From Verrucomicrobiota bacterium (GTDB lineage Bacteria > Verrucomicrobiota > Verrucomicrobiia > Verrucomicrobiales > Verrucomicrobiaceae): 64,000 nt of DNA. Both the position numbers and the translations under genes were made by a program. Numbering within the stretch: position 1 is the stretch's first letter; each line of letters begins with the position of its first letter. Location: positions 62,001 through 126,000 of the forward strand of contig JANYCZ010000004.1 in assembly GCA_025360015.1 (NCBI GenBank). The letters run 5' to 3'. Shown in pieces: positions 4,836 to 34,472 of the stretch. Under the pieces are notes generated by a model. The model was not told the origin of the DNA. It did not search any database and worked only from the letters and a program-made list of their open reading frames with translations.

Positions 4836-5005
4836 CAATGGCGCGCAGGTAAGGCGGTGCTTCATTCGTTTTCTCGCCCCCTGCCAACCCCAAGGCTCCG
4901 CATAAAAAAACGGGGCCTGCGTCGCTCGATTCCGTGACGACCCCACTTATGAGCCGGGCCAGAGCGGCGGTGCGATCATAGATCATGCGGTGCAGGGGCG
5001 GGCGC

Positions 5006-5467: not shown

Positions 5468-6334
5468 TCAGGGAGGCGGGGGGTGTTTGAGGAAGTCGAG
5501 CATCGGCGTGCGGAGCTCCATCCAGGCGGCGGGGGTGAGGCCGTGATTGAGGCCGGGGAGCATGATGAGGCTCACCTGCGTGTTGCTTGAGGACAGGAGC
5601 GCCTCATGCATGCGGAGCCCCTGCGAGGGGGGCACGGCGGCATCGGCATCGCTGTAGATGAGCAGGACGGGACAGTGAATGGCGGCGGCGACAAACAGCG
5701 GGGAGCGCTCGCGCCAGGCGGCGGGGTGCTGCTCGGGCGTGCCGCCAACGATGAGGTGCAGGCCGGCCAGCGGGGCGATGCCCGGCTCCGCACGGTGCGC
5801 CACCCAGTGCGCATAGCATTCCGCGAGATCCGTGGGGCCCTGCACGGCGATGACGCCCTGGATGGCGGGCTCGCGCGCGGCGGCCAGGAGGGAGAGCGCG
5901 GCGCCGTGGCTGAAGCCGAAGAAGTACACGCGCTTCGCATCCGCACAGTGCAGGCGCTGCGCGTAGCGCATGGCATTGAGCACGTCGTTCACCTCGCCTT
6001 TGGCCAGCTCGTGCTTGCCTGCGGACTTGCCGCAGCCGCGATAGTCCGGCGCGAGCGCGAGGAAGCCGGCGGTGGCAAAGAAGTCGGCAAAGGCTGCGAC
6101 TTTTTCAGCAGGATCGAACCCGCCGTGATTGACGATGAGAATGGGGAAGGGGCCGGCGCCTTCCGGCTTGCTGACGAGGCCGCGGATGCGGAGGCCATCG
6201 CTCTCGTAGGTGATGGGCACGCGATTGCATTTCGCCGGGGCCTCCAGATCGGTAGCACTGGGCTGCCGCCGACAACTGGCGAGGACCAAGGCTGCGACGA
6301 GGGTGGTGAGGAGAGCTGGAAGCGGGAGAGTCAC
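5468..6334 (-). CDS. Alpha/beta hydrolase lipoprotein (S9/dienelactone-hydrolase-like)
   Basis: A 288-residue protein with a lipoprotein signal, MTLPLPALLTTLVAALVLASC, where Cys21 is the predicted lipid anchor. The alpha/beta hydrolase core shows VNHGGFDPAEK (oxyanion region), the nucleophile elbow GFSHGA (Ser142), YSDADAAVPP (Asp229 or Asp231) and GLNHG (His264), so the catalytic triad is complete. YRGCGKS around residue 98 is typical of the dienelactone hydrolase/peptidase S9 branch. It probably hydrolyses an ester or small peptide in the periplasm; the substrate is not evident. It lies upstream, in transcription order, of the membrane protein at 5006-5326. Confidence 0.85.
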   Translation of the reverse strand: MTLPLPALLTTLVAALVLASCRRQPSATDLEAPAKCNRVPITYESDGLRIRGLVSKPEGAGPFPILIVNHGGFDPAEKVAAFADFFATAGFLALAPDYRGCGKSAGKHELAKGEVNDVLNAMRYAQRLHCADAKRVYFFGFSHGAALSLLAAAREPAIQGVIAVQGPTDLAECYAHWVAHRAEPGIAPLAGLHLIVGGTPEQHPAAWRERSPLFVAAAIHCPVLLIYSDADAAVPPSQGLRMHEALLSSSNTQVSLIMLPGLNHGLTPAAWMELRTPMLDFLKHPPPP

Positions 6335-26671: not shown

Positions 26672-27973
26672 TCAACCAACGAGATGCACCTGCGGCATGG
26701 GCACCACGAATTTGCCGCCACGGGCGAGGAAGTCCGTCTCACGCTTGAGGAACTCGGGCATGAAGTGCCATGGCAGCACGAGGTAGTAGTCGGGCTTGGC
26801 GGCGCGGGATTCTTCTTCGGAGATGATCTTGATCTGGGTGCCAATGGTGTAGCTGCCCCACTTGATCGGATTGCGGTCTGCGATGGCAGATACGAGATCG
26901 GAGGTGACGTTGCAGAACTGCAGCGTGGTGCTGCCCTTGGTGGAGGCACCGTAGCCGTGCACCACTTTGCCTTCGGCTTTGGCCTTCTTGAGGAAGGTGG
27001 TGAGATCAAGGCGGATGCGCTCGATGTTGTCGCGGAAGACGGCGTAGGGTGCGTCGGAATCCAGCGCCATTTCAAACTCGCGGATGCGCAGGTCCTGCAC
27101 GCGGGCGGCGGCTTCGGCGGAAGGCTTGACCTGGCCGGCATTGGCCACCACGAGGCGGAAGCTGCCGCCGTTCACGTCGTTGAGATGCACGTCGATGACT
27201 TCGAGGCCGTGGTCGCCAAAGAGTCGCTCCAGCACGGCGAGGGAGTAGTACTCCAGGTGCTCGTGGCAGATGGTGTCGAAGCTGTTGATGTCGAGCATCG
27301 CAGGCAGGTAGCTCTGCTCCAGGATCCAGATGCCATCGGTGGCAAGGACATCGGCGATGTCCTGCACGAAGGCGTGGGGATTCTCCAGGTCATAGAACAT
27401 GGAGATGCTGGTCACGACGCGGGCCTTCTCCGTGGCGTGCACGCTTTTGAAAGCATGTGCGGTGAAGAAATCGTTCACGACTTCAAAGCCCTTGGCGCGT
27501 GCCTTGAGGGCGACGTCTGAGGGATCAATGCCGATGTGCCGCAGGCCCTGCGTCTTGTAGCTGGAAAGCAGCGTGCCGTCGTTGCAGCCGATGTCGAGCA
27601 CGATGTCCTTGGCACGCAGGCTGACGGTCTGCTCCACCAGCGCGGTGATGCCCGTGAGATTGTCGATCATGGACTGATTGATGCCGGACTCGTAGTAGTA
27701 GCGGTGGTAGAGCACCTTCGGCGGCACGGAGTGGCGCATCTGCACCAGGCCGCAGGCGTTTTCATCCTGCGAGGGGTCGCAGCGCACGAGATCGAGCGGG
27801 ACTTTGCGCTTGATGAGCGCGCTGCCATCCGCACTGGCCAGCACCCCGCCGATGAATTGATCCCCAAGGCTGACGACAGGAGTGAGGCTGCGTGAGCCGC
27901 AAATACGACAGGTGTTGCGAGTGATGAGGACGGGGCGGAAAGCTTGGATGGCCATGGGTGCCTCAATTGGCAT
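26672..27973 (-). CDS. NDP-sugar C-methyltransferase-like protein (zinc domain + SAM domain)
   Basis: A 433-residue protein in three parts. The N-terminal zinc-binding domain has Cys22, Cys25, Cys65 and Cys74. The SAM-binding domain carries VLDIGCNDGTLL (125-136). The C-terminal domain contains VHGYGASTKGSTTLQFC and PDYYLVLPWHFMPEFLKRE. This architecture is that of TylC3/NovU-type sugar C-methyltransferases, which methylate keto-deoxy sugar nucleotides; many glycan-cluster homologs have other sugar substrates. It lies between the fcl gene and the ABC exporter, all leftward, supporting a role in making an unusual surface sugar. The start is either 27973 or six codons later (MAIQAFRP). Confidence 0.87.
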   Translation of the reverse strand: MPIEAPMAIQAFRPVLITRNTCRICGSRSLTPVVSLGDQFIGGVLASADGSALIKRKVPLDLVRCDPSQDENACGLVQMRHSVPPKVLYHRYYYESGINQSMIDNLTGITALVEQTVSLRAKDIVLDIGCNDGTLLSSYKTQGLRHIGIDPSDVALKARAKGFEVVNDFFTAHAFKSVHATEKARVVTSISMFYDLENPHAFVQDIADVLATDGIWILEQSYLPAMLDINSFDTICHEHLEYYSLAVLERLFGDHGLEVIDVHLNDVNGGSFRLVVANAGQVKPSAEAAARVQDLRIREFEMALDSDAPYAVFRDNIERIRLDLTTFLKKAKAEGKVVHGYGASTKGSTTLQFCNVTSDLVSAIADRNPIKWGSYTIGTQIKIISEEESRAAKPDYYLVLPWHFMPEFLKRETDFLARGGKFVVPMPQVHLVG

Positions 27974-28013
27974 GGCTGTGCTGGCGTGTCCAGCCAGACT
28001 TCACGCGGTGAGA

Positions 28014-28958
28014 TCAGACCCGGGCGGTCGCGCGGTTGTCAAGAAACCACTGGTAGGTGCTGGCCACGCCTTCACGGAAGTCGGTGCTGGCCTTCCAGCC
28101 CATCTTTTCCATGCGGCTGACATCCAGCAGGCGCCGCGGATTTCCGTCCGGCTGCGTGGTGTCCCAGCAGATCTCACCATGATAACCGACGATCTCGCTG
28201 ATCATCTCCGCCAGTTCGCGGATGCTCACCTCCCAGCCGCAGCCGATGTTGACGATGTCCGGGCTGCTGTAGTTTTCCAGCAGGAAGGCGCATGCGGAGG
28301 CCAGATCCTCCACAAAAAGAAATTCGCGCTTGGGATTGCCACTGCCCCAGAGGGTGACGCTTGGCTTGTTTTGCAGCTTGGCCTCATGAAAGCGCCGGAT
28401 CAGGGAAGGCAGCACATGGGAGTGCTCCGGGTCAAAGTTGTCGTAGGGGCCGTACAAATTCGCCGGCATGCCGCAGATGAAATCACGCCCATGCTGATGG
28501 CGGTAGCCCTGGCAGAGCTTGATGCCCGCGATCTTGGCGATGCCATATGGCGCATTCGTCTCCTCCATCGGCCCGGTGAGCAGGCTGTCTTCACGGATGG
28601 GCATCTCCACCACCTTGGGGTAGATGCAGGTGCTGCCCAGAAAGAGAACCTTCTGCGTGTCAAAGCGGTGCGCCGCAGACAGCACGCTGTTTTGAATCTG
28701 TAGATTGTTGAGAAGGAAATCGACCGGATGCGTGTAGCTGGCCTTGATGCCGCCCACCGTTGCCGCTGCCAGGATCACCTGATCAGGCCTCTCTGCCGCA
28801 AAGAAAGCATCCGTGGCATGCGGGTCACGCAGATCCAGCTCCGCACGCGTGCGGGTGATGATCTGCCATTCCGGCTTGTTGGCGTAGTGACGCAGCAACG
28901 CACGTCCAACAAGCCCCTGATGCCCGGTGATGAAAAGTTTGCCGCGTGATGAAGCCAT
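28014..28958 (-). CDS. fcl: GDP-L-fucose synthase
   Basis: A 314-residue short-chain dehydrogenase of the WcaG/Fcl type, starting MASSRGKLFITGHQGLVGRA, where Gly12, Gly15 and Gly18 bind NADPH. The catalytic residues are Ser109 (GSTCIYP), Tyr138 and Lys142 (YGIAK). NLYGPYDNFDPEHSHVLPSLIRRFHEAK is typical of Fcl. The enzyme epimerises and reduces GDP-4-keto-6-deoxymannose to GDP-L-fucose; the preceding enzyme Gmd is not in the window. The open frame extends 38 codons upstream but without homologous sequence. It is the first gene of the leftward glycan set. Confidence 0.93.
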   Translation of the reverse strand: MASSRGKLFITGHQGLVGRALLRHYANKPEWQIITRTRAELDLRDPHATDAFFAAERPDQVILAAATVGGIKASYTHPVDFLLNNLQIQNSVLSAAHRFDTQKVLFLGSTCIYPKVVEMPIREDSLLTGPMEETNAPYGIAKIAGIKLCQGYRHQHGRDFICGMPANLYGPYDNFDPEHSHVLPSLIRRFHEAKLQNKPSVTLWGSGNPKREFLFVEDLASACAFLLENYSSPDIVNIGCGWEVSIRELAEMISEIVGYHGEICWDTTQPDGNPRRLLDVSRMEKMGWKASTDFREGVASTYQWFLDNRATARV

Positions 28959-29128
28959 GCATTCATGCCTAGCGGATGAGGTTGCACTGTCCAGCAGAGC
29001 TTCATTTTCCAGCGACAATGACGTGAGCGTGAAGTCGCATACGCGGCACCACGTCAGGATACATGATGCCATTCAAAACAGTTCTAAACTTTGCTGAACT
29101 GCCCCGGCCACCACTCTCATGATGAGAG

Positions 29129-29203
29129 TGGCGACCCCTACGAGAATCGAACTCGTGTCGCATCCGTGAAAGGGATGTGTCCTAACCGCTAGACGAAGGG
29201 GTC
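29129..29203 (-). tRNA. tRNA-Glu (anticodon TTC)
   Basis: Read leftward: acceptor GACCCCT, D-arm with TCTAGCGGTTAGGAC, anticodon loop CTTTCAC with TTC, T-arm ACGAGTTCGATTCTCGT, 3' acceptor AGGGGTC, discriminator G and encoded CCA. A palindrome CCACTCTCATGATGAGAGTGG (29111-29131) overlaps the CCA end and may aid termination or processing. Confidence 0.97.
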
Positions 29204-29833: not shown

Positions 29834-32800
29834 ATGAGTTTTTCGTTCCGAAATTTGTTCCAGCGTGGAGCCGGTTCCAATGAACCGGGGCAAAGCGCTC
29901 AACATTATTTCGAGGCGGGAGCCCATCCTCAGAGAGCGCCTGGCACAGGCCCCCACAGTCTCTCCCCCATGCAAGCGTTACCTCCACAACAGTTCCCTGC
30001 GGGTGCATCCCCCTTTCAAGTCGGGGGCAATCCACTTTTCAAAACAGCGGGCAACGAATCCATTGCGGCACCGCCGATCAATTCAGCCACAGGCATGTCC
30101 CCGTTCAGTGTCATTGGAGCCACGCCCACAAATGCCCCTCTCACCGTAGGAGATGTGATTCATCAACTGCCGCCCGAGGAGGTGCGCATGGGAGCCCTGC
30201 CTGCGGAGCAGCCGCTTTCCCTGCCCCCTGCCCTGCTGGAAAATGCCTTGCGCAGCGGTCAGGCGGCCTTGCCGTTGTTTGAGCTGTATCGTGTCTGTCC
30301 GGCGCTGTTCCAGGTGCCCATCTCTCCGCAGGATCCACGTCTGGTGGCACTGCCCGCCACGAAACTTCCAGGCCTCATTGCGCAGGCACGGGAAGGACAT
30401 GCCGCAGCACCGACTCCTGCCGCTCAGTCTGCAGCGCCCTCGCCGTTTTCGCTCGTTCAGCCTGCCACACCTCCGCCAGTTCCCATGGGTTCGCCGTTCC
30501 AAATGGCGCAACCGACTGCGGAGCCTGCCCCGCAGCAGCAGCCTGCCTCGCCCTTCACCCTGGGCGCAGCCCCCGGTGCTTCGCCTTTCGGCATGCCTCA
30601 GCAGTCCGCCGCAGCACCTGCCTCGCCTTTCTCCTCATTGGGTGCCAGCCCTGTTGGCTCGCCGTTCAGCATGCCGCAGCAGGCAGCGGCAGAAGCACCC
30701 GCCGCAGCGCCGCAGGCATCGCCGTTCACCTTAGGTGCGGCTTCCGGCGGCTCCCCTTTTGGCATGCCCCAGCAATCCGCAGCGGCTGCACCGATGGCAG
30801 CACCCGCCTCCCCTTTCGGCATGCCGCAGCAGTCCGCCGCAGCACCTGCCTCGCCTTTCGCCTTGGGTGCCAGCCCGGCGGGATCGCCCTTCAGCATGCC
30901 GCAGCCATCCGCAGGGGGAACTCCCGCCGCATCGCCTTTCAGTTCAGGTGCAGCCGCAGGTGGCTCGCCTTTCGGCATGCCGCAGGCATCCGCATCGCCA
31001 TTCCCCGCCGCGCCACCCGAAAGCCAGCTCGCACCCGCTGTGGCGGCTCAGCCGCAGGCATCCATTTCCGTTTTATTCACACCTCAGGCGCAGCAAAGAG
31101 CCTCCACGCCTTCAGACATGGCGACGGCACCCGGGATGCCCTTTGGCTCCCCCTTTGTCTCGGCCATGCAAGAGGCCGCACCTCAGGCGGAATCACCTGC
31201 GCCGAGCGCCTTTGCCCAGCAGCCTCCCTCAGCGGGTGCTGCCTCCGGCCTGGCCAAGCTGGGCTTCGCGGCGGTGCTCAGTGGTTACAGCGTGGAAGAA
31301 CTCGGGTTCAATCCCACCACCCTGCCAGCGTGGATCACCACCAGCGTGCAGGCCAGCACCCTGCACGAGCAAATTCCCTCCGGCAATGTCATACTCGAAC
31401 TCGGCATGCTCGTGGATGGCATTTCCGACCTCGGCTTCCGCAACACCTTGGGCAACGCCAAACGTGATTTCAAAATCAAGGTGCCGCAGAATGAGGTGTT
31501 TCATGCGCTGACCCACCTTTCGGCGGCACCCGCAGCAGCCGTGGCCTCCTTCGGCAGCCCCAGCCCGGCGGCAGCCCCTGCGCGCCTTTCCGTACAGCCC
31601 AATCCTGCGCAGCAGCCGGCCCAGAATGCGCAGCCCATGTTTGCGGCTCCTCAAGCCCAGGCCCCCGCAGCACCATCGCAGATGCCGATGTTCGGTGCCT
31701 CCTTGACTCCTTTTACCCAGGCAGCAGCGCCCGCCCCAGTACCGGGCTTTGGCTCTGCGCAGCCCGCCGGTGGACCGGCGCCGTTTGACTTTTCTGCTCC
31801 CGCTGCCGCAGCACCGGTGTCGGTTTTCGGTTCCGCTCAGCCTGCCAGTAACGCCGCGCCGTTTGCGTTTTCTGCTCCCGCTGCAGTTCCAGCGCCTGGG
31901 TCGGTTTTTGGTTCTGCTCAGCCCGCCAGCAACGCCGCGCCGTTTGCGTTTTCTGCTCCCGCTGCAGTTCCAGCGCCTGGGTCGGTTTTTGGTTCCGCTC
32001 AGCCCGCCAGCATTCCCGCGCCGTTTGCGTTTTCTCCTCCCGCTGAGGCCCCTGCCCCGGCACCGGTCTCAGCGTTCGGCGCGGCTCAGCCCTCGAACGG
32101 TCCGGCTCAGTTTGGGTTTTCTCCTCCTGCGGCCACCCCGTCACCCGTGTCAATCTTTGCCACGGTGCAGCCTGCCAGTGCTCCAGCGCAGTTCTCTTTC
32201 TCTCCTCCGGCAGCCCTTGCGGAGGCAGCACCGCCTCCGGCTTCACCCCCGCCCTTTTCGGCCGCACCGTCGGCGGCTGCCGCGCCGGCAGCACCGCTGC
32301 AACCCCTCGCCAGCGCGTTCTCACCCTTCGGTGCTCCGCAGCCCCTCGCGGTGAGCCAGCCAGCGGCCCAACCGAGCTCACCGCTCGCCGGGACCACCAA
32401 ACCGTTCGATCCCTTTGCCTCGTCCTCCACCGGACCCCTGGCAGCCAAAGCACCTGCGGAATCAGGCTTTAGCAGCGCCCAGTTGCTCGGACATGCTCCT
32501 GCACCGCAGCAGCATGCCACGCCATTCGCGCCAGCACCTGAGATTCAACCTGTTGCCAGCCTGTTTGCCGCACCGGCACCCGCGCCTTTTCAGCCCACGC
32601 CCTCGTTCGCCCCGGCCTTGGAGGAAATACCGTCGTTTTCCACGCCCGCAGCTCCTGCTCCTCAGCCTGCTTCGCGAGGATTGTTCAGCACCCAGGCGGT
32701 GAACGTGCCGCTGTTTGCAGAATCGGCGGCACCGCCGCAGGCCAGGCCAGAACCTCAACCTGCGCCAGCCGCCCCAGCGCCTCCTTCCACCTCTCAGGCC

Positions 32801-33268
32801 GCACCCTCAGCAGCGGCCCCAGCCAAAATGGAGGCGGTAAAACATTCCTTCCTGGGTCTTTCCCCGCTCGATACCCAAACAGATCAGCTCCTGCTGCGCG
32901 CACTGCTGGGCACCGAGGAGAAACTCGCCGCGCCACGCGTCGTCGAGCTGCTGGCCCTCCAGCAGGGCCTGAGCGCCTGTGTCTGCCTGCACGGCTCCCA
33001 TGTCCTCAGCCATGCGGATTCAACCAAGCCTGACGCCGCCGAATTCCAGCGGCAGGCACCGGACATCGCCCGTCAGTTGCGCGGCCTCGCTCCGCTCATC
33101 GGCATTGAAGGCGCGGAAACTTTCACGCTCAATGCCGGCGGTCGCTTGCTCACCTTCTGCTTCCCGGGGGACTCCATCATCGGCGTGCTGCACGATGCCG
33201 AACCCTCCACCGGCATGCGCGACAAGATCACTCTCATCGCCCGCGAACTCGCACGCATGCTCGGCTAA
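29834..33268 (+). CDS. Giant SPF/FG-repeat disordered protein with C-terminal Roadblock/LC7-like domain
   Basis: A 1144-residue protein without signal peptide or membrane segment. After a polar head, residues about 102-187 form a compact domain (TVGDVIHQLPPEEVRMGALPAEQPLSL..ALPLFELYRVCPALFQVPIS). Residues about 203-460 are low-complexity Ala/Pro/Ser/Gln with many SPF and SPFG motifs (ASPFGMPQQSAAAP). A second folded-looking segment spans about 470-562 (LGFAAVLSGYSVEELGF..DFKIKVPQNEVFHAL). Residues 636-790 repeat VFGSAQPASNAAPFAFSAPA with a 27-residue period. After more disordered sequence, residues about 1003-1144 resemble a Roadblock/LC7 domain (QLLLRALLG..VELLALQQGLSACVCLHGSHVLSHAD..RDKITLIARELARML). 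The next two genes encode an MglA-type GTPase and another Roadblock protein, so this is probably a cytoplasmic GTPase partner or scaffold. Its function is unknown. Confidence 0.85.
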   Translation: MSFSFRNLFQRGAGSNEPGQSAQHYFEAGAHPQRAPGTGPHSLSPMQALPPQQFPAGASPFQVGGNPLFKTAGNESIAAPPINSATGMSPFSVIGATPTNAPLTVGDVIHQLPPEEVRMGALPAEQPLSLPPALLENALRSGQAALPLFELYRVCPALFQVPISPQDPRLVALPATKLPGLIAQAREGHAAAPTPAAQSAAPSPFSLVQPATPPPVPMGSPFQMAQPTAEPAPQQQPASPFTLGAAPGASPFGMPQQSAAAPASPFSSLGASPVGSPFSMPQQAAAEAPAAAPQASPFTLGAASGGSPFGMPQQSAAAAPMAAPASPFGMPQQSAAAPASPFALGASPAGSPFSMPQPSAGGTPAASPFSSGAAAGGSPFGMPQASASPFPAAPPESQLAPAVAAQPQASISVLFTPQAQQRASTPSDMATAPGMPFGSPFVSAMQEAAPQAESPAPSAFAQQPPSAGAASGLAKLGFAAVLSGYSVEELGFNPTTLPAWITTSVQASTLHEQIPSGNVILELGMLVDGISDLGFRNTLGNAKRDFKIKVPQNEVFHALTHLSAAPAAAVASFGSPSPAAAPARLSVQPNPAQQPAQNAQPMFAAPQAQAPAAPSQMPMFGASLTPFTQAAAPAPVPGFGSAQPAGGPAPFDFSAPAAAAPVSVFGSAQPASNAAPFAFSAPAAVPAPGSVFGSAQPASNAAPFAFSAPAAVPAPGSVFGSAQPASIPAPFAFSPPAEAPAPAPVSAFGAAQPSNGPAQFGFSPPAATPSPVSIFATVQPASAPAQFSFSPPAALAEAAPPPASPPPFSAAPSAAAAPAAPLQPLASAFSPFGAPQPLAVSQPAAQPSSPLAGTTKPFDPFASSSTGPLAAKAPAESGFSSAQLLGHAPAPQQHATPFAPAPEIQPVASLFAAPAPAPFQPTPSFAPALEEIPSFSTPAAPAPQPASRGLFSTQAVNVPLFAESAAPPQARPEPQPAPAAPAPPSTSQAAPSAAAPAKMEAVKHSFLGLSPLDTQTDQLLLRALLGTEEKLAAPRVVELLALQQGLSACVCLHGSHVLSHADSTKPDAAEFQRQAPDIARQLRGLAPLIGIEGAETFTLNAGGRLLTFCFPGDSIIGVLHDAEPSTGMRDKITLIARELARMLG

Positions 33269-33333
33269 AGGGCCCGGCGTTCTGCGACAGGCTGCGGCAT
33301 TCACCTTCCTTCATTCGTCACTCCTCCCCTGCC

Positions 33334-33987
33334 ATGCCCAGCATCAATCACGACGAACGCACCGTCAGCTTCAAGGTCGTCTATTGCGGCACACCGCTGA
33401 GCGGGAAGACGTCCAATCTCCAGCAAATCCACGCCAAGCTGGACCCCAATGGCTGCAGCGATCTCGTCTCGCTCTCCACCGCACAAGACCGCACCCTGTT
33501 CTTCGACTTCCTCGCTGTGGAGGCGGATGCTCTGCCCGGCTACAAGACCACCTTTCACCTATACACCGTCCCCGGCCAAGTCACCTACAATGCCACGCTG
33601 CAGCTCGTGCTGCGCCAGGCCGATGGCGTAGTTTTCGTGGCAGACTCCCAGATGGACCGCCAGCGCGACAACCTGCAGTCCCTGCAAAGCCTCGATGCCA
33701 ACCTGCGCATGAACGACAGCTCGCTCGACCGCCTGCCCATCGTCATTCAATACAACAAACGCGACCTGCCCAACGCCGCGCCCGTAGAGTATCTGGAATA
33801 CCTCTTCAACAACCGGCCCACGCCCTTCCTCAGCTTTGAATCCGACGCGCGCAGCGGGCGCAATGTGCTGGCCACCCTGAATGCCATTTCCCAGGCCGTG
33901 CTGCATCAGTTCCGCCTTCGCACTGCGCCAGCGGACAGCACCGCAGCCATGCCGCACGAACTGCCCACCCACGCTCTGGCTGCCTAA
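33334..33987 (+). CDS. mglA: MglA-type small GTPase
   Basis: A 217-residue Ras-like GTPase strongly resembling Myxococcus MglA. The P-loop is GTPLSGKTSNLQ (Lys25, Thr26). The switch I region is QDRTLFFDFL (51-60), switch II is YTVPGQV (Gln82), and the guanine-specificity motif is NKRDLPNA (141-148). FVADSQMDRQRDN matches the family loop after beta strand 4. MglA with its Roadblock partner MglB sets cell polarity in gliding and twitching bacteria. About 20 extra residues (RTAPADSTAAMPHELPTHALAA) extend the C-terminus. It lies 65 bases after the repeat protein and 23 bases before a second Roadblock gene, so the three are probably co-transcribed. Confidence 0.93.
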   Translation: MPSINHDERTVSFKVVYCGTPLSGKTSNLQQIHAKLDPNGCSDLVSLSTAQDRTLFFDFLAVEADALPGYKTTFHLYTVPGQVTYNATLQLVLRQADGVVFVADSQMDRQRDNLQSLQSLDANLRMNDSSLDRLPIVIQYNKRDLPNAAPVEYLEYLFNNRPTPFLSFESDARSGRNVLATLNAISQAVLHQFRLRTAPADSTAAMPHELPTHALAA

Positions 33988-34010
33988 ACTCATTCCCCTC
34001 CACCTTGACC

Positions 34011-34409
34011 ATGCACCTCACCTCTATCGCCTCCCTTCCTGATGTCATTCAGGCCGCCATCGCCGATGACGCCGGACGCCTGCTCGACTGTGCGGGCGAG
34101 GCCGAGCTGCCCACCGCCGCCATCCTGGTGCTGGCCCACGCCACTCTCTCCGCCGCCTCCGAACTCGGCCGCCGCTCCGGCAGTGGCGACTGCCTGGAAA
34201 TCATCCAGCAGCACGACGCCGGCGTCATCTACCTCCACGGCCTGCCGCAGCGCCGCGTGCTGCTCGTCCGCTGCCAAAGCACCGCTCCCATCCCGGCCAT
34301 CCGCGCGGCTTGTCAGGAACTGGCCAAGCCCATCACCACACGCATCCGGCCCGTCTCGGTGCCATCCTTCGATCTCTCCGACGCGCTGCACGCCGAACCG
34401 GCCTGGTAA
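34011..34409 (+). CDS. Roadblock/LC7-like protein (MglB-like)
   Basis: A 132-residue protein starting at ATG 34011 (a TTG two codons upstream is also possible). LTSIASLPDVIQAAIADDAGRLLDCAGEAELPTAAILVLAHATLSAASELGRRSGSGDCLEIIQQHDAGVIYLHGLPQRRVLLVRC has the alternation of the Roadblock/LC7 fold: helix, two strands with 'd-x-x-G-x-l', long helix, then strands. MglB-type Roadblock dimers are GTPase-activating proteins for MglA, encoded directly upstream. A strong terminator follows, closing the operon. The family call is by pattern rather than by one diagnostic motif. Confidence 0.75.
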   Translation: MHLTSIASLPDVIQAAIADDAGRLLDCAGEAELPTAAILVLAHATLSAASELGRRSGSGDCLEIIQQHDAGVIYLHGLPQRRVLLVRCQSTAPIPAIRAACQELAKPITTRIRPVSVPSFDLSDALHAEPAW

Positions 34410-34446: not shown

Positions 34447-34472
34447 CCCGGCCTTTCCAAGGCCGGGTTTTT
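34447..34472 (+). terminator. Intrinsic terminator closing the MglA operon
   Basis: CCCGGCCTT, loop TCC, AAGGCCGGG form a perfect 9-bp GC-rich stem followed by TTTTT (34468-34472). It separates the Roadblock gene from apbE. Confidence 0.92.

Follow-up and report, generated by a model that had tools for sequence, protein, structure and literature searches.

The 64,000-nucleotide stretch of DNA analysed here (the window) comes from a Verrucomicrobiota bacterium of the family Verrucomicrobiaceae (assembly GCA_025360015.1, contig JANYCZ010000004.1, positions 62,001 to 126,000) and is numbered from its first letter. At 29834–34409 it contains one run of three plus-strand genes, ORF1, mglA and ORF3. 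They encode, in that order, an 1144-residue protein (29834–33268) that we describe as a candidate modular disordered scaffold with a C-terminal Roadblock domain, on the basis of its open reading frame, alignment and AlphaFold2 modelling; a Ras-like GTPase of 217 residues, MglA (33334–33987); and a 132-residue MglB-type Roadblock protein (34011–34409). The spacers measure 65 nucleotides between ORF1 and mglA and 23 between mglA and ORF3, and the run is followed at 34447–34467, on the plus strand, by a hairpin resembling an intrinsic terminator, with nine pairs, GC-rich, and then TTTTT. An initial annotation of this DNA had proposed such a three-gene run with short spacers and a terminator at 34447, and this was borne out; the hairpin has the second-longest stem among nine terminator-like sites in the scanned region, against 7.7 sites expected in shuffles.

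MglA and ORF3 belong to known kinds of protein, as the same annotation had supposed for an MglA-type GTPase with intact P-loop and NKRD motif and for a Roadblock-like ORF3. The window MglA matched solved Myxococcus MglA in phmmer (1e-50) and has G19, K25, T26, R53, T54, D58, Q82 and NKRD at 141, of which R53, T54, D58 and Q82 carry the numbers of active-site or magnesium residues in Myxococcus and Thermus MglA (PMC6785124; this and the other papers are cited for the portions of their text available to us). These motifs are nearly invariant among 56 Verrucomicrobiaceae-type loci (DRT..FDF in 55, PGQ and NKRD in all 56), and a model of the 94% identical orthologue at locus L007 aligned with 6h17 over 190 residues (Z 28.1, root-mean-square deviation 1.5), compared with Z of ~18–19 for Ras and Rab in the same fold search. 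The window MglA is the sole match at E ≤ 1 in its genome, and its nearest relatives, at 94–96% identity, include proteins labelled Prosthecobacter sp. or Verrucomicrobiaceae bacterium. For ORF3 we prefer the ATG start at 34011 to the TTG at 34005. Alone it gave a sub-threshold Robl_LC7 match (17.1 bits, cut-off 23); the family profile, built from the window and 37 loci, matched solved MglB chains from 2.9e-12, Robl_LC7 was found at E ≤ 1 in 34 of the 38 family members, and hhalign aligned the family with Gemmatimonadetes MglB at a probability of 97%. The proteins share a conserved C-terminal tail (..LSDALHAEPAW in the window), with the pattern AL[HYN][AV] within the last 14 residues in 27 of the 38 copies. 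We read ORF3 as the ordinary MglB-type partner and GTPase-activating protein (GAP) of the system.

ORF1 itself matched no family in Pfam or NCBIfam, and no receiver domain was found in it. Among 37 full-length ORF1 proteins, conserved islands comprise an N-terminal MSFSFRSLFQ-like motif (MSFSFRNLFQR in the window, 29834–29866) and residues ~101–182, 478–560 and 1010–1144, and are set in a fast-changing background of Ala, Pro, Ser, Gln, Phe and Gly. When residues 1–570 were modelled with AlphaFold2 from a 33-sequence alignment, the predicted local distance difference test score (pLDDT) was mostly above 90 at ~101–188 (module 1; 30134–30397) and 470–564 (module 2; 31241–31525) and mostly below 50 elsewhere. 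Module 2 appears to be a divergent copy of module 1: a first hhalign comparison was weak (E 0.032 over 28 columns), and an iterated module model matched 19 of 34 module-2 copies at E < 1e-3, with that of the window reaching only 0.0054. Module 1 has no sequence match among solved structures and no further copy in its own genome. A fold search with the two-module model yielded a best E of 3.8 in Foldseek and 0 of 49 chains at Z ≥ 2 in VIA, and the mostly disordered 570-residue model may hide a match; in the searches made, then, the modules lack known structural relatives, a weak negative from which we claim no new fold. A membrane-targeting amphipathic helix at the N terminus of ORF1 was considered and is unsupported, the helical moment equalling or exceeding the family mean in 8 of 28 control ORFs from the window (a set that includes ORF1 itself and probably some spurious ORFs).

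The remainder of ORF1 is dominated by two disordered arms, the first with an SPF-rich stretch at residues 203–441 (30440–31156), delimited by motif counts and AlphaFold2, and the second with an 81-nucleotide tandem repeat (31778–32045; 3.3 copies, 90% matches). SPF occurs 18 times, compared with 1.5 expected in composition shuffles, and FG dipeptides 14 times, compared with 4.5. The SPF count exceeds the shuffled mean in all 37 full-length sequences (the window and 36 loci) and FG varies from 1 to 15 across the 36 family relatives, so that SPF is the consistent motif and dense FG of the nucleoporin kind is not a conserved feature of the ORF1 family. Charge is very low in two disordered stretches (2.5% and 4.1%), and Phe recurs mostly every 10–25 residues in 191–470. 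This composition, together with the SPF excess, would suit arms that phase-separate into a condensate trapping MglA and MglB, composition itself being the function, but we consider that quite improbable. In 19 ORF1 relatives from outside the family (see below) [TVAS]PF motifs number only 0–4 per protein, and because such motifs are so rare there the SPF-rich arms are, as judged from these counts, an elaboration at the level of the Verrucomicrobiaceae and not the core function; moreover, repeats of this kind can arise from nothing more than recent tandem duplication. As to the condensate or polar hub that the initial annotation had proposed as a possibility, we found no computational support for condensation beyond sequence composition. 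The initial description of ORF1 as a low-complexity SPF/FG-repeat protein thus stands for its extreme composition and for the motifs of the window copy, but fails for the two modules, which are predicted to fold, and for the relatives outside the family.

The most informative part of ORF1 is its C-terminal domain (32873–33265), which had been judged Roadblock-like by eye. Direct sequence searches of this tail against Pfam, NCBIfam and solved structures gave no Roadblock match, and a plasmid search with it gave no match. Profile comparison by hhalign aligned it with ORF3 at E 1.3e-4, or 9.8e-7 with relatives added, and aligned tail plus relatives with independent MglBs from the phylum and from Gemmatimonadetes at E 3e-5 (score 36.0; the highest-scoring of 60 column shuffles reached 23.1 and the reversed profile 8.9); against four Gemmatimonadetes MglBs alone it found nothing (probability 0.3). 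The AlphaFold2 topology of the tail, H-H-E-E-H-E-E-E-H, follows the order of ORF3 except for one extra N-terminal helix, with block-mean pLDDT of 84–97 over model residues 21–150 apart from one block at 65 (L007). In ORF1 relatives from other lineages, Robl_LC7 was detected in the C-terminal part at E ≤ 0.01 in four of the eight scanned, two of them exceeding the Pfam cut-off of 23 (27.0 and 23.6). The iterated profile used for finding relatives absorbs MglBs in later rounds, so the E-values of those rounds do not count as separate support for the fold. Given the profile scores, the predicted topology and the Pfam matches in relatives, a Roadblock fold of the tail is well supported by inference, in agreement with the judgement by eye. 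We also modelled the tail, MglA and ORF3 as one chain with AlphaFold2, using locus L007 with Gly in place of its natural stop codons. The individual folds were good and their arrangement was not, with a predicted template modelling score (pTM) of 0.46, and the ORF3 C terminus showed a short predicted helix (520–524) between stretches of pLDDT < 50. In two fold searches with this model no MglB chain was among the 50 matches listed in each; MglA and other GTPases fill both lists, which makes them uninformative on the tail. In one of the two, Rag GTPase chains, which have a Roadblock domain of their own, aligned over ~340–355 columns at TM 0.27–0.30 of the query.

Although the fold seems to be kept, the face with which MglB binds MglA probably is not. 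We compared helix 2 in a joint alignment, using Myxococcus MglB numbering, of 27 ordinary MglBs (two rows being short fragments), 38 ORF3 proteins, 51 ORF1 tails and the 19 outside-family relatives; positions 64 and 68 of MglB are ones that we take to be important. MglB grips MglA via its α2 helices (PMC6785124), and Ser54 and Ser57 are named as MglA contacts (PMC7949163). Ordinary MglBs have Gly/Ala at 61 in all 27, Ala/Gly/Ser at 64 in 22 and Ala at 65 in 24, and ORF3 is similarly small (61 Ala in 35/38, 64 Ala/Ser/Thr/Gly in 36/38, 65 Ala in 38/38), the exceptions being position 60, His in 27/38, and position 57, Val in 28/38. The ORF1 tails are mostly charged or bulky where MglB is small, with Arg/Lys/Gln at 57 in 42/51, Asp/Glu at 61 in 36/51, Arg/His/Gln at 64 in 39/51 and His/Gln at 65 in 39/51, and so are most outside-family relatives (61 Gln/Arg in 14, 64 Arg/Lys/Gln in 15 and 65 Arg/Gln/Lys in all 19). 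Moreover, ORF1 family proteins stop at or soon after helix 3 and have no helix beyond the Roadblock core, where MglB has the C-terminal helix that gives it exchange activity (PMC11016934). Because of these charged or bulky positions and the missing helix, the tail is probably a pseudo-MglB, which retained the fold and lost the MglA-binding face; the GAP-type role initially assigned to it is thereby unsupported, and the MglB-type partner is ORF3. Asn37 and Arg98, the GAP residues of MglB, do not discriminate, as they also differ among ordinary verrucomicrobial MglBs.

The presence of two Roadblock proteins could also mean that MglB has been split, the ORF1 tail and ORF3 forming an asymmetric mixed dimer on one MglA, with ORF3 as the exchange side and ORF1 as the GAP side, an arrangement near to what the initial annotation had in mind. 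Myxococcus MglB does act as an asymmetric dimer whose protomers have distinct roles (PMC11016934), a conserved C-terminal tail is present in ORF3 and absent after the Roadblock core of ORF1, and ORF1 and MglA are kept in genomes without detectable MglB. The helix-2 residues of ORF1, the low pTM of the fused model and the coexistence of ORF1 relatives with ordinary MglBs in other lineages all argue the other way, and we regard a split MglB as rather unlikely.

The association of ORF1 with mglA is tight across the family. From 82 loci collected, removal of identical mglA copies left 66, of which 10 come from other phyla and 56 are the Verrucomicrobiaceae-type loci (a few labelled Verrucomicrobia only). 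In 55 of these 56 (several of them cut by a contig end) mglA is immediately preceded by ORF1 with the conserved tail, the exception being L028, whose contig starts 240 nucleotides before mglA; ORF3 lies 3′ of mglA in 38, so the gene trio recurs in other Verrucomicrobia. Three loci (L040–L042) have a short ORF1 of 312–315 residues; in L008, L012 and L015 module 1 and the tail fall in two different open frames, through either disruption of the gene or misassembly of the repeats. None of the 10 loci from other phyla has ORF1, and an ordinary short MglB precedes mglA in four of the six from Gemmatimonadetes (L046–L049). Among the 18 loci without ORF3, L042 ends after 172 nucleotides and nine belong to a Brevifollis/Prosthecobacter clade, where an MglB-like ORF was found elsewhere in eight of nine genomes (the match in G016 being partial, with a stop inside) and four inspected MglBs end in a tail like that of ORF3 (SLADALN.. 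etc.). At L174, L176, L177 and L178, in the Brevifollis-like clade, the MglB-type gene away from mglA follows what by eye resembles a DNA polymerase I gene.

At the genome level, MglA was found in 54 and module 1 in 57 of 68 family genomes (both in 51, MglA only in three, module 1 only in six, neither in eight; Fisher p 5e-5). In all six module-only genomes the contig stops short of the tail. Of the three MglA-only cases, two start inside ORF1 at a contig end and the third is L028; because all nine discordant cases thus sit at contig ends, no family case of one without the other is free of them. Both are missing from at least three genomes of 93–96% completeness (G028, G043 and G058). These three genomes are smaller (4.0–4.4 Mb) and keep PilT-family ATPases.

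Beyond the family, the association persists. MglA was found in 35 of 337 genomes of the phylum, and of the 28 MglA genomes outside the family we examined 27 loci, leaving out G284, a fragment. An MglB-type gene follows mglA in all 27, and an ORF1 relative (an open frame of at least 451 residues with a C-terminal Roadblock) adjoins mglA in 19: upstream and on the same strand in all five loci of same-class relatives, which span four families, and in divergent orientation to mglA in 14 of the other 22. Five of the eight loci without such a relative come from one family (f37), and one lies on a contig of only 3.2 kb. All 19 relatives carry one to three copies of the module (28 in total) and then the Roadblock domain, and six of the eight scanned (L160, L165, L167, L169, L181 and L186) have a ComEA-like helix-hairpin-helix before it (Pfam HHH_3, 5e-15 to 4e-19). 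In the class relatives [ST]PF comes after several modules (e.g. ..DQIVPEKGPEIPTPF), and the SPF repeats may derive from such module-trailing motifs. Several mglAB loci of other classes (L160–L170) have neighbouring genes resembling what we take to be a DUF4388/PATAN signalling domain. With the linkage conserved across the phylum in either of two gene orders, and with the joint absences in the family, a chance neighbourhood in which ORF1 is unrelated to MglA is barely credible, even if ORF1-like genes occur in two genomes, G191 and G394, where MglA and MglB were not found.

PilB/GspE-type ATPase genes adjoin 6 of the 27 outside-family loci. In L151, L152, L153 and L155 they immediately precede the ORF1 gene, whereas in L161 and L162 they lie 3′ of mglB. 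Such placement, in four of the five class loci and 2 of the 22 further ones, would be expected if ORF1 were an MglA-GTP effector or pilus adaptor whose modules and arms act on a PilB-type ATPase, the tail serving only to dimerise ORF1, as Roadblock domains commonly dimerise. That role seems unlikely for ORF1, as no pilus or PilB-type gene adjoins the window operon, sequence searches found neither a further copy of module 1 in the genome nor a relative of it among solved structures, and SgmX, the effector in Myxococcus, is a TPR protein (PMC7519303).

We favour instead, with a probability of roughly 0.45, a reading in which ORF1 serves as the scaffold that localises an MglA/MglB polarity module in Verrucomicrobia, with an MglC-like tail and with type IV pilus extension as the probable output. 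Gene linkage, sequence motifs and predicted folds carry this reading; the binding partners, localisation and output of the system we infer. In Myxococcus, MglC lacks the N- and C-terminal extensions of MglB, has lost MglA binding, and binds MglB and RomR (PMC7949163, PMC12719032), and it is because of this likeness, the changed helix 2 and the missing C-terminal helix that we assign ORF1 the part of scaffold and MglC-like adaptor and ORF3 that of GAP. The pseudo-MglB tail would most likely partner ORF3, the true MglB, much as Myxococcus MglC partners MglB, and the folded modules and long SPF-rich arms could make a number of low-affinity contacts with a landmark of the cell envelope or pilus. 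ORF1 would then concentrate MglB at one site and hold MglA there in the GDP form, while in other places MglA-GTP would remain available to activate an effector, probably of type IV pilus extension; in Myxococcus, MglA-GTP and SgmX together promote the formation of pili, and SgmX is important for placing PilB at the pole (PMC7519303). ORF1 would in effect unite MglC with RomR's disordered linker in a single chain. A broader version appears doubtful, namely that the ORF1 family is a phylum-wide scaffold, built of one to three modules, a disordered arm and a pseudo-Roadblock tail and merging the roles of RomR and MglC, which gathers MglB at a cell site, regulates MglA where MglB is missing and, through multivalent and possibly condensate-forming SPF repeats, places type IV pili or the prostheca.

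Several observations weigh against ORF1 as a localising scaffold with pilus output. That helix-2 positions 61, 64 and 65 face MglA is in part deduced and in part what we presume. Of the positions compared, only 57 (Ser57) is a contact named in the available portion of PMC7949163, it is small (Ala) in 17 of the 19 outside-family relatives, and the whole comparison rests on a difficult alignment of very divergent sequences. The fused model, at its pTM of 0.46, supports no complex. Of the eight genomes behind the remaining loci without ORF3, five (G012, G060, G062, G063 and G065) have MglA and module 1 and gave no MglB in two profile searches, and three gave weak or broken MglB matches (G067, 0.001; G064, 0.013; G061, 6e-6 with an internal stop); where MglB was not found the tail must act otherwise, and may act on MglA differently. 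The near-complete class relatives G191 and G394 carry an ORF1-like gene, with no MglA or MglB found, which suggests that the scaffold can persist in the absence of the switch. Their genes, which have a Roadblock tail, lie at 4924–6582 of L157 (G191) and at 5573–7186 of L156 (G394), and in L156 the next gene resembles dnaX by eye. As to output, the three adjoining ATPases scanned all fall below the PilB cut-off (630–671 against 675.65 bits) and that of L162 passes the GspE cut-off (633.5 against 630.25); because of this, pilus and secretion cannot be told apart, and secretion is as possible as pili. Furthermore, since PilT-family ATPases occur in all 68 family genomes, including those without MglA, presence and absence are uninformative on pili, and a search for co-loss of pili with MglA and ORF1 gave no signal.

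Before ORF1 in the window, on the minus strand, are a tRNA-Glu gene (29129–29203) and, at 26672–29072, genes of the C-methyltransferase and NAD-dependent sugar epimerase types; an ApbE-family gene lies downstream of the hairpin.

Mgl polarity has been best worked out in Myxococcus, where the RomR scaffold, the MglC adaptor and the MglB GAP are separate proteins, and a survey of prokaryotic Ras GTPases places MglA of Group 5 in Verrucomicrobia and reports receiver–Roadblock fusions (PMC4316618). A literature search of partial coverage, over titles and the starts of abstracts, returned no description of an mglA-linked scaffold protein like ORF1; the GTPase and MglB are of known kinds and the scaffold family is, as far as could be seen, undescribed, and its conserved modules went unmatched by Pfam and NCBIfam models in the proteins scanned. 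If our reading is correct, the Verrucomicrobiota, a large and little-studied phylum, would offer an independent solution, with a single gene tied to mglA encoding both scaffold and adaptor. The localisation of a bacterial small GTPase would become directly testable, and there would be a way into how prosthecate Verrucomicrobia place their pili and make their cells asymmetric.

Among systems of other kinds, Ragulator offers an analogy, though its p18 subunit is, to our knowledge, not itself a Roadblock protein. With the Rag GTPases it resembles the present arrangement in combining a wrapping subunit with a Roadblock platform for a Ras-like GTPase (PMC5680233), by analogy only. Response regulator–Roadblock fusions (PMC4316618) and the Methylacidiphilum globin HGbRL (PMC4476040) likewise place a Roadblock-type region in a larger bacterial protein, but they have a receiver or globin N terminus, and the available portions of these papers describe no mglA-linked module scaffold. 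Like RomR of M. xanthus, ORF1 is a protein of an Mgl polarity module with a long disordered region (PMC12719032), but it has modules and a Roadblock domain and no receiver domain was found in it, and RomR binds MglC non-covalently. The likeness to MglC lies in a Roadblock fold with no C-terminal helix after the core and, judging from its residues, probably no MglA binding; in ORF1, unlike MglC, the domain is the tail of a protein of ~450–1200 residues, and an ORF1-tail profile search of solved structures matched no MglC chain in this very divergent superfamily. With the MglA/MglB systems of Myxococcus xanthus and Thermus thermophilus the operon shares the same GTPase, with catalytic residues at the same numbers, and an MglB-type protein, ORF3, encoded in the same run. 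It differs from them in the order scaffold–mglA–mglB and in the long third component that has a Roadblock tail of its own; moreover, one clade has its MglB-type gene at another place, and in some genomes the searches found none.

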